A stretch of DNA of 32,127 nt, from contig CALLVG010000190.1 of the NCBI GenBank assembly GCA_938010715.1, positions 1 to 32,127 of the forward strand, read 5' to 3'. This stretch comes from an uncultured Saprospiraceae bacterium. GTDB taxonomy: Bacteria > Bacteroidota > Bacteroidia > Chitinophagales > Saprospiraceae. Positions within the stretch are counted from its first letter, which is position 1. Each line of letters opens with the position of its first letter. Made by a program: the position numbers and the translations under genes. Positions 4,331 through 25,468 of the stretch are shown here, in pieces. The notes under the pieces were generated by a model. It saw only the letters and a program-made list of their open reading frames with translations, had not been told where the DNA came from and ran no database searches.

Positions 4331-4452
4331 CTTGAGCCAACTCAAAACCTCCTCTGTAACCGGAGCCACTTTCGGCCCAGCCATCTTCACATATTCTCCT
4401 TTCTCATTCGAAAGGTATTTTTGGAAATTCCATTATACTTCGCTGCTTTCTA
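4328..4452 (-). pseudogene. Duplicated 3' fragment of a glutathione peroxidase gene
   Basis: Read on the minus strand, this stretch gives ESSEV, a TAA stop, then WNFQKYLSNEKGEYVKM, GPKVAPV, and ends with TAG. It matches the last 41-42 codons of the intact gpx at 5134-5610. By eye about 15 of 105 nucleotides differ. The in-frame TAA replaces an Ala codon next to the catalytic Trp. The fragment has no start and begins exactly at the stop codon of the hepT-like gene. It ends at the edge of the palindromic element. It is therefore a remnant, left either by insertion of the toxin-antitoxin module or by decay of a gpx paralogue. Confidence 0.85.
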
Positions 4453-4797
4453 TTTTTCCTCAATTATCCTTTTAATTTTCGATTTTAAATCAGGAATATC
4501 TGAGGTTACCACTCTCCAAACAAGCCCAACAGTAACACCAAAATATTGATGAATAACTACGTCTCGCATACCCGCAATTTCTCTCCATCTAACATTAGGA
4601 TATTTTGTTCTCGTAACTTTTGATATATTCTTGACAGCTTCACCAATGATTTCAATTCGACGAATTACTGCATCTTGCTTTTCAGTATTTTCCTCAAATT
4701 CTTTTTCGGAAAGACCTTCGGTATAATCTTCAATTCTTTGGATGCATTCAAGAATATCTTCGAAAAAAATAAGTTCGTCTCTTTTCTTCTTAGCCAT
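4450..4797 (-). CDS. hepT: HepT-like ribonuclease toxin (HEPN, DUF86)
   Basis: 115 aa, a usual length for the family. The all-helical HEPN domain carries the RX4HXY motif as Arg78-DVVI-His83-Q-Tyr85. Arg and His are the RNase active site in characterised HepT toxins, and the Tyr is the residue AMPylated by MntA. Upstream of the motif, RIEIIGEAVKNIS is also typical of DUF86. It overlaps the mntA-like gene by 8 bp (4790-4797), so translation is probably coupled with the antitoxin made first. Its TAG stop lies at the junction with the gpx-like fragment, so its C-terminus may have been set by the insertion point. Activity is inferred from motif conservation only. Confidence 0.9.
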   Translation of the reverse strand: MAKKKRDELIFFEDILECIQRIEDYTEGLSEKEFEENTEKQDAVIRRIEIIGEAVKNISKVTRTKYPNVRWREIAGMRDVVIHQYFGVTVGLVWRVVTSDIPDLKSKIKRIIEEK

Positions 4798-5092
4798 AGA
4801 TTCTGATTTCTTCAGCTAATATCCTTTCCTTTAAACGAGGTTTAATTGCTTGATATTCAACTAAATCTACTGCCCTACCAAGTAAGTCTTCCAATTCTAA
4901 TTTTATTCCCACAAAATCCAGTAAGCTAATCTTTGTTCCAAGTTCAACTAAAATATCAATGTCACTTTTTGATGTTGCATTGCCTTTTGCAGTCGAACCA
5001 AACAAACCAGCCTTCTTTATCTGATGTCGAATTAATATAGGAATGATTCTATCCTTTATTTCTAAAACATTCATTGTTTGAATTTTTGACAA
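4790..5092 (-). CDS. mntA: MntA-like nucleotidyltransferase antitoxin (MNT domain)
   Basis: 100 aa, a minimal nucleotidyltransferase. The signature GSX10DXD is present as Gly32-Ser33, ten residues, then Asp44-Ile-Asp46, inside LFGSTAKGNATSKSDIDILV. In characterised HepT-MntA pairs the MNT protein transfers AMP to the HEPN tyrosine and silences the RNase; the intact catalytic motif here fits that mechanism rather than simple binding. It precedes hepT with an 8-bp overlap on the minus strand. It lies 41 bp downstream of the gpx stop codon. The start ATG at 5092 is the only good one in the ORF. Confidence 0.9.
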   Translation of the reverse strand: MSKIQTMNVLEIKDRIIPILIRHQIKKAGLFGSTAKGNATSKSDIDILVELGTKISLLDFVGIKLELEDLLGRAVDLVEYQAIKPRLKERILAEEIRIYG

Positions 5093-7953: not shown

Positions 7954-8065
7954 TAGACTTCATTCTGAAATAGTTTGTAGTGCAACGAATGCTTAGATTT
8001 TTTAACGATAAGTAGCGGAAAAAAAAGTATTTGCTTGCATACTAAATATTTTAGAATAAAGTCTA
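7954..8065 (+). mobile_element. MITE-like repeat, copy A (112 bp)
   Basis: It begins TAGACTTCATTCTGAAATAG and ends ATTTTAGAATAAAGTCTA, giving about 18-bp terminal inverted repeats bounded by TA. The inside contains GTTTGTAGTGCAACGAATGC and AAGTAGCGGAAAAA. It aligns end to end, in opposite orientation, with copy B at 12616-12725, and its first half aligns with copy C at 25268-25317. It has no coding capacity. TA at both ends fits a Tc1/mariner (IS630)-type non-autonomous element; this class call is inference. Confidence 0.75.
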
Positions 8066-12615: not shown

Positions 12616-12725
12616 TAGCCTTTATTCTAAAATTTTTAGTTTGCAATCGAATACTTCTTTTTTCGCTACTTTTCGTTAAAAAATAATCACTCGTTGCTCT
12701 ACAAACTATTTCAGAATAAAGTCTA
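12616..12725 (-). mobile_element. MITE-like repeat, copy B (110 bp), overlapping a stop codon
   Basis: The plus strand begins TAGCCTTTATTCTAAAA and ends TTTCAGAATAAAGTCTA. Its reverse complement aligns over the full length with copy A at 7954-8065, with roughly four in five bases identical by eye. Shared internal blocks are GTTTGTAGAGCAACGA, TTTTTTAACGA and AAGTAGCG. Its right edge (CTA at 12723-12725) is the TAG stop codon of the GEVED/T9SS gene on the minus strand. Confidence 0.75.
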
Positions 12726-14747
12726 TTGAACAAAAAACCGTTTAGTTTTATACCGAATTCCGTCCTTGTCAAAAATTCTAATCCAGTAGATTCCTGATTC
12801 CCAACTAGCAGTGTTAACCGAAATGTTTTGACCAATTACTTTTGTGGTGTATTGAATTTTTCCTATTGAATTGAATATTTCAATAGAAGACTCACTATTA
12901 GTAACTTCGACAAGTTCCAAATATAGAATATCAGACACTGGGTTAGGAAAGAGGTTGTAACTCAGAGTTTTGACTTCGTTCACATTACTATTGCCAGAAA
13001 TATTGACCGTATAATCTTCAACTTCTCCAATGTATTCATTACAAGGATCTATGATGCCACTCTGACTGAATAGGTTTCGTACCCTCAGTCTGAAAGAAGA
13101 ATTGTTGAGAATTTCTGGAACGGTAAAAAATCCTGCTGCTAACGTATCATCTACAAAAGAACCCATTTCTATAAATTCACCCTCTTCAAATGACCGACTA
13201 TTGTCCCAATCTACCCATGCTTGAGGAATGTCAAGTCCTGTCCCTTGCTCAATATTAATGAACAAAAAATAATTTTCATTTTGAACTAAATTTGCGTTGA
13301 GCATAGAGAAATCAGAGTATGTACTTTCACCAGACGGGTTGGTAAAGATGGTATCAAAGTTCTCGTTTAGGATTGCAACTTCTTTGATGAAATTATTATC
13401 CAAACTTTCAATTCCTTGGGCTAAACAATAATCTTGGCAGTCAAGGATACCATTGTTGTTCAGGTCTGCAAAGTCATCTTCGCCTGGACAAATATCGTCT
13501 TGGTTACAAACACCATCAAAGTCATCATCCTCAATTTCGCCACGACAGTTACAGTTTGCATCAATGACATCATTGATACTACAGGCTAAACCATCATCAC
13601 AGGTATCGCCCATATTTGGACAGTCACTAGCGACAATATCAATTTCATAGTCTTCGACTTCGCCGAATTGTTCATTGCAGGCAGGGTTCTCTATGTTTTC
13701 ACCATAAATTATCCGAACCCTCATTCTTGTCGAACCCAAAAGGGCATCATCTGGCACATCAAAGTTTCCCGTACTGATGAGTCCAAAAAATTCGCCCATG
13801 TTCAAGGATTCCGATTCTTCAAATTTATTATTTTGGTTAAAATCAATCCAAGCATAGGCTACATCAAGGTCAAATACTGCGGCGCCATGAATGTCGATGT
13901 CATAAGAAACACCCTGAACCAATTCTGTTCTAATATTTGTAAAATCAGAGTATCTGGTTTTTCCACTAAAATTATTTATGTCATATAGACGAACGCGCTC
14001 AATGAAATCACCACCTGTATTCGTCGAACCACTGGCTTCGCAATAGTTTTCCAGAATGTCCGGTATGCCATTGTTATTTATGTCTAAATTATCATCCTCA
14101 CCAGGGCATTGATCTTCTTCGTTACAAATACCATCAAGGTCATCATCCTCAAAATCACCACGACAATTGCAATTTGCATCAATGGTATCATCAGTAGTGC
14201 ATTCGATACCATCGTCACAATTGTCGCCTACGTTTGGACAATCGTTAGCGATAATATTTACAGTATAGTCTTCTACTTCTCCAAAAATACTACCGCAGGA
14301 ATAGTTATCAACCGGATTATTAATATAAATGGATCTGACCCTCATCCGGGTAGCTCCTAAAGTCGCATTTGCAGGTACAGTAACTAGTGATTCTGCTACT
14401 GTTTCACCCACTTCAAATCCGCTGTAAAGTACTCTTTCATTTGGTTCAAAAATCTCATTTTGATTGTAGTCTATCCAAACAAAAACAGTATCAAGGTCAA
14501 ATGTATTATTCATGTGAACAAACAACGGATAATCAGCCTCTTGTGCCAGTTCTATCTCAATGTTTGTAAAATCAGAATATGCTGTTTTACCAGAAGACTT
14601 TACGACATCGTATATACGAACTTTGCTTATCCAGTCTGTGGTAGTTCCACTGGCACCTACAGCATCGCAGTATTGCGCATTCGATATTGGATTGAATAAA
14701 AAGAGGGAGAAAAAAATAAAAATGAAGTTGTAGTTATTTCGTTTCAT
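12723..14747 (-). CDS. Secreted GEVED-repeat protein with T9SS sorting domain
   Basis: 674 aa. A signal peptide (MKRNNYNFIFIFFSLFLFNPISNAQ) is followed by three GEVED modules of about 140 aa, each ending in GEVEDYTVNI or a variant (about 160, 350 and 575). Between them are Cys/Asp-rich linkers with NCDDGIECTTDDTIDANCNCRG and DDLDGICNEEDQCPGEDD, resembling thrombospondin type 3-like calcium-binding repeats. The last 75 residues form a type A T9SS sorting domain (YNLFPNPVSDILYLEL ... GIYWIRIFDKDG). The protein should cross the outer membrane by T9SS and be attached or released at the cell surface. GEVED modules are common in adhesins and secreted peptidases, but no catalytic domain is seen. The stop codon comes from MITE copy B. 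Plus-strand ORFs inside are shadows. Confidence 0.92.
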   Translation of the reverse strand: MKRNNYNFIFIFFSLFLFNPISNAQYCDAVGASGTTTDWISKVRIYDVVKSSGKTAYSDFTNIEIELAQEADYPLFVHMNNTFDLDTVFVWIDYNQNEIFEPNERVLYSGFEVGETVAESLVTVPANATLGATRMRVRSIYINNPVDNYSCGSIFGEVEDYTVNIIANDCPNVGDNCDDGIECTTDDTIDANCNCRGDFEDDDLDGICNEEDQCPGEDDNLDINNNGIPDILENYCEASGSTNTGGDFIERVRLYDINNFSGKTRYSDFTNIRTELVQGVSYDIDIHGAAVFDLDVAYAWIDFNQNNKFEESESLNMGEFFGLISTGNFDVPDDALLGSTRMRVRIIYGENIENPACNEQFGEVEDYEIDIVASDCPNMGDTCDDGLACSINDVIDANCNCRGEIEDDDFDGVCNQDDICPGEDDFADLNNNGILDCQDYCLAQGIESLDNNFIKEVAILNENFDTIFTNPSGESTYSDFSMLNANLVQNENYFLFINIEQGTGLDIPQAWVDWDNSRSFEEGEFIEMGSFVDDTLAAGFFTVPEILNNSSFRLRVRNLFSQSGIIDPCNEYIGEVEDYTVNISGNSNVNEVKTLSYNLFPNPVSDILYLELVEVTNSESSIEIFNSIGKIQYTTKVIGQNISVNTASWESGIYWIRIFDKDGIRYKTKRFFVQ

Positions 14748-15462
14748 TGAAAACAGATTTTATTGGAAATTATTTATGCCAAGAATCCTTGCAGTTACTT
14801 TTTCGTCTAAGGAACTGGAAAAATTAAGTCGTATTAAAAATTCACTAATTTTTTCAAATTTAAACCTGTGCCACCGTCAAATCTAAAACCATTGGGTAAT
14901 GCACTTCTTTGTTTAACTCTAAGTTAATTTTTTTTATTAAATTAATAATACGAATCAGGAGTTTAAGATAAAAATGATTTAGAGTTTCAGAATTTTGTGC
15001 TTTTTGTCGCTACGCGCCACGATGGAAAATTTCAACGCCTGTTCGCATTAATAGTGGTTATTAACGAAGTTGTTAAAAAAAAATTCATTGATTGGCTGCA
15101 AGCGGTAAATTTCCTCACTTTCCCTCAATCATAGAATTTTAAAAAGCTCTAAGGCATCCACTGTGGCTTTGCCTTGTACAGGGGCAAAAGAGCAAGTTAC
15201 GCTAAGAAGCCTCAGAGAGGCGACAATATTTACAGGATGAATTTTAATTGAGTTTTGTTAGCTCCAGATACTAGTCTAAAGAGACATTTTTTTTAGCAAA
15301 AAATTTATGTAATTTTTTGATGCGTTTGCCCTCAATAAAGTCTAAATAGTCTTGTTTTTTCAAATAAGTTTGTAGAGCAATCGATGCAAAGTATTTACAC
15401 TTGATGGGAATGACTATAATTGTGGCTCGTTTAATCCACATTACTTAAAAAATTCCTTTAAG
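14748..15462. other. 715-bp AT-rich gap with repeat debris
   Basis: No convincing gene. At 15361-15387 AAATAAGTTTGTAGAGCAATCGATGC resembles the inner part of the MITE (GTTTGTAGAGCAACGAATGC), a possible degenerate fourth copy. At about 15208-15240 GCCTCAGAGAGGCGACAATATTTACAG has the same plan (short hairpin, then CAATATnTTnACAG/GTAG) as the CGTAGGAG repeats. On the minus strand near 14845-14905 a short frame reads LPNGFRFDGGTGLNLKK, which could be a gene remnant but is unassigned. Promoters for both flanking genes should lie here, but none is clear. Confidence 0.4.
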
Positions 15463-18138: not shown

Positions 18139-18732
18139 ATGCCAAAACGAAAAATTTTAGATCAGCGTGGACTTAACTATTTGACATTGACAGTAGTCGG
18201 CTGGGTAGATGTGTTTACAAGAAAAAGATATCGAGACATTATCATTGAAAGCCTAAACTTTTGCCGCAAAGAAAAAGGGTTGATAATCTGCGCTTATGTC
18301 ATCATGAGTAATCACCTACACCTCATCGCCCAAGTTGAAGAGGGAAATAAATGGACACTTTCAGATGTGCTTCGTGACTTTAAAAAATATACTGCTAATA
18401 GAATTTTGGAATCCATTATCAACGAACCCGAGTCACGCAGAGATTGGATGTTGATAGTATTTGGGTATCATGGAAAGTATAAAGAGCAAAATCGAAATTA
18501 TCAGTTTTGGGTGCATGGCAATCATCCCACTGCGTTGTATTCACCAAAAGTGATTTGGGAAAAGATTGCCTACATTCATGCTAATCCAGTTCGAGCAGAT
18601 ATCGTTGATCGCGCAGAGGATTATATCCACAGCAGTGCGCGTCAATATTCAAATGAACATTTAGGTGGGCCTTTAGAAATTGATTTGTTGCCGCCGTTGA
18701 TGCCGGGTGGATTTATTTATGTTCCTTCTTGA
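18139..18732 (+). CDS. REP-associated tyrosine transposase (RAYT, IS200-like Y1 family)
   Basis: 197 aa, complete. The HUH motif is His-Leu-His in VIMSNHLHLIAQ (about 55-66). The likely catalytic Tyr is in DFKKYTANRIL (about 74-84). The C-terminal family segment YIHANPVRADIVDRAEDYIHSSA is present. RAYTs are single-copy domesticated relatives of IS200/IS605 transposases that cut and join single-stranded REP sequences. REP hairpins flank this gene on both sides (18001-18075 and 18759-18812), so gene and REPs appear to be a working unit. No IS605-type TnpB is nearby. It converges with the DUF6089 gene. Confidence 0.93.
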   Translation: MPKRKILDQRGLNYLTLTVVGWVDVFTRKRYRDIIIESLNFCRKEKGLIICAYVIMSNHLHLIAQVEEGNKWTLSDVLRDFKKYTANRILESIINEPESRRDWMLIVFGYHGKYKEQNRNYQFWVHGNHPTALYSPKVIWEKIAYIHANPVRADIVDRAEDYIHSSARQYSNEHLGGPLEIDLLPPLMPGGFIYVPS

Positions 18733-25237: not shown

Positions 25238-25267
25238 TATGGATGCTTAGAATTTTGCCTCAATTAG

Positions 25268-25317
25268 CAAAAAAATAAGCATTCGTTGCTCTACAAACTA
25301 TTTCAGAATAAAGTCTA
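25268..25317 (-). mobile_element. MITE-like repeat, truncated copy C
   Basis: The plus strand AAAAATAAGCATTCGTTGCT ... TTTCAGAATAAAGTCTA matches half of MITE copies A and B. The other half, with its terminal repeat, is absent. The RAYT remnant begins at its edge, so the two events may be linked. Confidence 0.7.
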
Positions 25318-25319
25318 AT

Positions 25320-25427
25320 GAATTTTTAAAAATCGAAAAATATATTTTACAGAATCCGGTTAAAGCAGGTATTGTAAGTAATTGGAAAGATTACTTTTTT
25401 AGTTTTACCGATAACTCAGATTTTTAA
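25320..25427 (+). pseudogene. Remnant C-terminus of a second RAYT/Y1 transposase
   Basis: A frame without a start reads EFLKIEK, then YILQNPVKAGIVSNWKDYF, then FSFTDNSDF and stops at TAA. The YI(L/H)xNPVKAG(I/L)V segment is the C-terminal signature of REP-associated and other IS200-like Y1 transposases. The HUH and Tyr parts are gone. The sequence differs from the intact RAYT at 18139 (YIHANPVRADIV), so it came from another RAYT. Its TAA stop is the first three bases of the palindromic element at 25425-25468. Confidence 0.8.
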
Positions 25428-25468
25428 CCCAAATAAACCTGCCCGATGTCAGGCGGGTTTGGGTTCTA
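25425..25468. mobile_element. Short relative of the 4231-4330 palindromic element
   Basis: It reads TAACCCAAATAAA, then CCTGCCCGATGTCAGGCGGG, then TTTGGGTTCTA. The ends match the right arm of the 4231-4330 element exactly. The middle has been replaced by a GC-rich hairpin (CCTGCC...GGCGGG). It overlaps the stop of the RAYT remnant and ends 4 nt before the ATG of the permease gene. Confidence 0.8.

Follow-up and report, generated by a model that had tools for sequence, protein, structure and literature searches.

The window, i.e. the whole 32,127-nucleotide stretch analysed here, is contig C190 of a Saprospiraceae MAG (3.6 Mb in 314 contigs, 77% complete). An earlier note on this DNA had described a 112-bp MITE-like family bounded by TA dinucleotides and had proposed that it is a non-autonomous element of the Tc1/mariner-IS630 type. 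The questions raised by this locus are whether such an element is mobile, which part of it is conserved and what moves it.

Copies, length classes and target sites

The focal copy, at positions 7954-8065 (+ strand), belongs to subfamily A, characterized by TAGAC ends. Both of its ends are TA, and its left and right terminal repeats are TAGACTTCATTCTGAAATA (7954-7972, +) and TATTTTAGAATAAAGTCTA (8047-8065, +). The second short copy, of 110 bp, is located in the opposite orientation at 12616-12725 (- strand); the two are genuine full copies that align over their whole lengths with 88% identity. Both start and end with TA, as the earlier note had it, but the pair of terminal repeats that it quoted is a composite of the start of the first copy (TAGACTTCATTC) and the end of the second (AATTTTAGAATAAAGGCTA). 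Each copy is predicted to form one long hairpin (-21.4 kcal/mol, z = -6.6, and -19.1 kcal/mol, z = -6.4, respectively), with 0/200 dinucleotide-preserving shuffles doing as well in either case. For one neighbouring gene, the named relatives come from MAGs of Saprospiraceae. The genes adjoining these copies are unrelated, and the TAG stop codon of the GEVED/Por-tail ORF at 12723-14747 (- strand) is formed by the first three bases (12725-12723) of the 110-bp copy.

Two partial copies had been detected with too narrow limits. The half copy reported at 25268-25317 extends over 25243-25317 on the - strand; it corresponds to the 5' half of a 163-bp long form (97% identity over 76 nt) and ends at the hairpin tip. 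The possible trace at 15361-15387 is a real match, which covers 15347-15387 (+ strand; 88% over 41 nt, E 2e-7) and derives from the left end, now degraded, of a TAGTC... variant known from congeners. Elsewhere in the window, two adjacent small genes at 4450-5092 (- strand) have translations resembling those of an MNT-type nucleotidyltransferase and of a DUF86/HEPN protein, which together would make up a common toxin-antitoxin pair.

Further copies, as expected by the earlier note, are numerous, and the terminal repeats mark their boundaries. Searching the MAG at the DNA level yielded 78 matches. A covariance model (R1) built on 19 BLAST-collected copies from six genomes yielded 124, corresponding to ~115 loci after removal of nine that were the same palindrome on the other strand. 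In contrast with the proposal of a 112-bp unit, most full copies in the MAG and nearly all of those in its relatives are 160-168 bp long. Copies of 110-112 bp are a minority in the MAG, where the common form has 163-166 bp, and the difference of ~53 bp is located between two ATTTTTT runs. A comparison of the two forms indicates that the short one is best read as an internal deletion of the long one, a point missed by the earlier note. The short copies of the window would have lost these ~53 bp of core by slippage or recombination, and hence the core would not be strictly required for the persistence of a copy. In a third length class, of 182-192 bp, the core contains an additional small hairpin, CGTGTCCCGATTTTAATCGGGG. 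The element has no coding capacity.

Mobility was demonstrated, first by comparison with a sister MAG. One of its contigs (L057) aligns with the window to the left and to the right of the focal copy but is devoid of the element, and its TA site is uninterrupted, which provides, at this one site, the TA-flanked empty site that had been sought. The empty site reads GATTTTCAGTA-TTTTATAAAATT, and the filled site reads GATTTTCAATA, the element, then TA-ATG-TTTTATAAAATT; the three bases ATG beside the insertion site differ between the two. Moreover, elements of subfamily B (TAAGTAGC ends) are inserted into A elements of the window's MAG, at the TA of GCAAATACTTC. Thus, at locus L226 the A sequence is split as GCAAATA...TACCTCTTTTT, and the nested B element has a TA at either side. 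A TA target duplication, a feature of IS630/Tc1-mariner derivatives, is therefore seen at this locus as at the focal site, although a TA belonging to the element itself would be indistinguishable from a duplication. Assembly breaks occur inside B copies in 11 contigs, as expected of multicopy repeats. This is, then, a dispersed multicopy element whose insertion at a TA leaves TA on either side, and the description as non-autonomous and TA-bounded holds. With its short length, lack of coding sequence, terminal inverted repeats, many dispersed copies and empty target site, it has the features of a MITE.

Among 298 genomes of the GTDB family Saprospiraceae, whose members are abundant in sea water and waste-water plants, 135 genomes from 63 of the 112 genera have R1 matches; at most nine matches were scored per genome in this survey, so that per-genome copy numbers are lower bounds. 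Two congeners (G002 and G005) have 0 matches at the R1 threshold. A broader covariance model (R2) was run on 396 genomes drawn from the phylum Bacteroidota, and 10 were positive, six of them outside Saprospiraceae: the window's MAG, three more Saprospiraceae, five members of a single further family in the same class and, from another part of the phylum, one high-GC genome. Near-complete genomes contain 109, 58, 45 and 39 matches, the 109 being in one 8.8-Mb genome, and near-identical copies are found in G064, G027 and G156.

A high-GC element of the same length, with a CAAGGC...AACG core and TAGTGCTGCGTCAAG ends, was seen at L366:1501-1665 in a genome of a distant family of the phylum (G494); it suggests that the class extends past Bacteroidia. 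Searches of plasmid collections returned no match to the window element or to L363, and searches of plasmid and phage collections none to L366. A scan of viral contigs with the core pattern gave 8 hits, which were rejected as chance as all read through phage-like coding genes.

Central core and terminal repeats

Subfamilies whose terminal repeats are unrelated have two things in common, their length and a hairpin core at the centre (GCTAATCAAGGC ... AACGAAGAGTAGC). In ~120 elements printed out for inspection, the length is 160-168 bp almost throughout, and several groups of outer repeats, unrelated to one another, can be distinguished (TAGACTTTATTC, TATACCGAATT, TAGAAGCTGTTTGAATTT, AAGTAGTGAGACAAAAATAA, TATACCTGAAACG, TAGAGTTTATG and others). 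This length remains constant across dozens of genera while ends and stems turn over. The part that is kept is the centre, ATTTT...AATCRAGGC followed by a hairpin, with AGCCNTAGCT often at its tip, and by AACGAAGAG...AAAAGA, at ~50 nt from either end. Among the best-conserved parts in 50 representatives is an asymmetric internal loop, in which AATCAAGGC is mismatched with AACGAAGAG. The earlier note had thus overlooked that the conserved part is the inner structured core, not the ends.

Five elements of the window's MAG (L197, L199, L210, L215 and L220) are mosaics, with the left half of one subfamily and the right half of another joined at the core. In addition, the left arm of L287 contains the exact reverse complement of its right core arm, and the tip of L073 is a perfect palindrome. 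End-swapping by such recombination or arm copying would explain the association of one core with many ends.

Two other repeats of the window's MAG (G000) are worth describing. Subfamily D (TAAAGTTGAAATAATAAC... / ...GTTATTTTTTCAACTTTA; loci L006, L029, L013 and L220) has the CGTGTCCCGATTTTAATCGGGG insert of the 182-192-bp A copies. A second high-copy palindromic repeat, of ~124 bp with AAGGAACGCTCAAAAAATAAG / GTTATTTTTTGAGTAATACTTA ends (e.g. L036:1223-1345), is devoid of the core.

Folding of one strand and its possible role

We aligned the 50 representatives with MAFFT and looked for covariation. Compensatory changes are found in 35 of the 39 consensus pairs. Two-sided changed cells number 434, compared with 116 +/- 9 in shuffled and at most 162 in slid alignments, and 92% of cells are paired, compared with 67.5% and at most 55%, respectively; owing to the relatedness of elements from one genome, these cells are not independent events. 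The arm-copied perfect palindromes of L287 and L073 also indicate that some of the covariation may be mutational.

The fold is strand-specific. When the core is used to define the + strand, this strand gives the better fold in 42 of 42 elements. We counted G.U and A.C oppositions over the first 42 nt in arm-to-arm alignments that score both alike, and found a ratio of 129:23 for the 50 representatives, whose model-assigned orientation might favour G.U. The 19 BLAST-defined copies, which are free of that concern, gave 63:3, with the same direction in 19 of 19 elements. Such an excess of G.U points to RNA or single-stranded DNA, since recognition of double-stranded terminal repeats predicts no difference. 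We infer that selection maintains the folding of one strand along the entire element, with RNA as the most likely form and single-stranded DNA as a less likely one. A search of the window against Rfam 15 returned 0 matches at the gathering threshold, and a search with five loci at E values up to 1 returned no relevant match.

We favour, with a probability of roughly 0.6, the view that these are TA-targeting non-autonomous elements of ~164 bp, of the MITE type, which are moved in trans and carry a selected single-strand, probably RNA, fold. An alternative that we regard as rather improbable is that they are ordinary MITEs, i.e. long inverted repeats left by deletion within an IS, with a functionless fold, whose arms are kept complementary by template switching and whose core reflects descent and recombination. 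Arm-to-arm copying is visible in L287 and L073, recombination at the core is frequent, and long hairpins are also formed by known bacterial MITEs (PMC2229807, PMC10969869). However, arm copying would erase the mismatched AATCAAGGC/AACGAAGAG loop, which is well conserved, and this scenario offers no reason for the 129:23 ratio; the preservation of length in spite of the turnover of ends and stems also argues against it.

According to crude ORF calls, 0 of 148 elements are inside called genes, and 41 are located between divergent genes as opposed to 10 between convergent genes. Elements between codirectional genes are in sense orientation in 50 cases and antisense in 37, an excess restricted to the first set analysed (33 vs 16). 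If the element acted as RNA within the mRNAs of its neighbours, its orientation with respect to genes should be biased; the independent set has no such bias (17 vs 21), and the sense bias was dropped. The strictly intergenic location and the predominance of divergent gene pairs would be in keeping with a domesticated regulatory RNA, such as a 5' UTR element or a terminator, spread by a transposase that is now lost. We nevertheless find this very unlikely: the sense bias is inconsistent between sets, the focal copies neighbour unrelated genes, the near-identical copies in G064, G027 and G156 point to recent spread rather than conserved sites, and the focal copy is missing from the orthologous site of the sister MAG.

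Candidate transposases and known systems

In the genomes studied, IS630-like (DDE_3) elements have TA-ended repeats. One of them, L146 (TAAGTAGTTTGACAAAATCAT), from the congener G004, has ends that match the outer repeat (TAAGTAGTATGACAAAATTAT) of the core-bearing element at L077:1334-1494 in the window's MAG. In G156, an element with TAGGGAGTAGGC ends and the same core pattern is nested in an A element, and its ends resemble those of L166, another G156 locus, which has a weak match to DDE_3. The outer repeats would thus seem to be specific to the transposase, with the core being shared. For the window's own ends, the assignment to the Tc1/mariner-IS630 type is thus supported indirectly, through a sister subfamily for which there is a candidate transposase gene with matching ends. 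No IS with TAGACTTTATTC (TAGAC) ends was found in the genomes examined, and G027 and G064, which have near-identical copies, have no DDE_3 match.

Other leads to a transposase were abandoned. A larger TAGAC-ended element in G156 (contig C15) is not an IS, as its ends enclose an esterase-like ORF, and following the unpaired TAGAC ends of G027 and G156 did not yield a transposase either. An IS630 copy on contig C307 of the window's MAG has different ends of its own (TACTAAGTACA) and sits within the ~124-bp palindromic repeat.

The strand-specific fold and the tolerance of G.T would also suit an element recognized as single-stranded DNA. Its strand would fold during replication or transfer and be moved by an HUH enzyme (Y1/RAYT, IS200/IS605-like) or by an attC-type recombinase that reads the hairpin. 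Integron attC sites similarly have a conserved fold and a variable sequence, and Y1 genes are common in these genomes, with one in the window. Several results make this alternative unlikely. G120, G218 and G311 harbour high-scoring copies and have no Y1_Tnp match, and hence Y1 transposases are not needed. No core was found in the flanks of the 34 Y1 loci checked. Copies are distributed 35:35 between replication strands on the 8.37-Mb contig of G153, according to a weak GC-skew map, and DDE elements typically have long terminal repeats bordered by TA on each side.

Regarding Y1 genes in the window, a RAYT-like transposase gene is located at 18139-18732 (+ strand; PF01797, E 3e-5, over the cut-off), with no element copy adjoining it. 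A remnant at 25338-25428 (+ strand), YILQNPVKAGIVSNWKDYFFSF, resembles a RAYT C-terminus and is directly beside the half copy; it is too short for a Pfam match.

Under the favoured reading of elements moved in trans with a selected fold, mobilization would occur by cut-and-paste catalysed by TA-duplicating DDE transposases, of the IS630/Tc1-mariner type for at least one subfamily, and each subfamily would have the terminal repeats of a different transposase. The ends enclose the conserved core hairpin with its fixed asymmetric internal loop, the part common to the subfamilies, at which, as the mosaics show, halves bearing different ends recombine. Most likely, the core would act in the transcript, for instance as a binding site for a host factor or an RNase or as insulation for the genes nearby, which would make insertions tolerable. 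More tentatively, these elements may form a Bacteroidota-wide mobile class whose identity lies in the fixed-length single-strand hairpin core itself; as RNA or single-stranded DNA, the core might aid mobility or persistence, and it would swap ends and transposases by recombination.

It is well established that bacteria contain MITEs of 100-200 bp that have TA ends and RNA hairpins (PMC2229807; reviewed in PMC10969869). The Correia elements, or NEMIS, of Neisseria occur as classes of ~107 and ~155 bp that differ by a ~50-bp internal segment, with TA-ended repeats and an RNA hairpin (PMC2229807). They resemble the elements described here in their two size classes, TA ends and hairpin, but they differ in ends, host phylum and sequence, and we found no report of their having a core common to families with unrelated ends across a phylum. 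RUP of Streptococcus pneumoniae is likewise a small non-autonomous element at TA targets, with terminal repeats similar to those of IS630-Spn1 (PMC2229807), as one Saprospiraceae subfamily has IS630-type ends. Unlike RUP, the Saprospiraceae element has a constant core and outer repeats that vary with the subfamily, and no TAGAC-ended IS was found for it. The enterobacterial ERIC/IRU, a 127-bp repeat with TA ends and an orientation-dependent RNA effect on transcripts (PMC2229807), shows no sequence relation and differs in length, core and hosts. Finally, MITECca01 of Cardinium is also a high-copy MITE in a Bacteroidota genome, but it is unrelated, being ~240 bp long, derived from IS982 and lineage-specific (PMC9769881).

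In the open-access literature, we came across no description of families that differ in their ends yet share a conserved core; this is weak evidence of absence. The elements described here represent a large natural set of insertions, with tens to >100 per genome, and make the function of a MITE's folded strand directly testable. MITEs are usually defined by the ends of their parent IS, and their interior is deemed dispensable, whereas here the interior is conserved across genera and the ends change. MITEs as such are familiar, and what is new here is a strand-specific core that is conserved while the ends can be exchanged.
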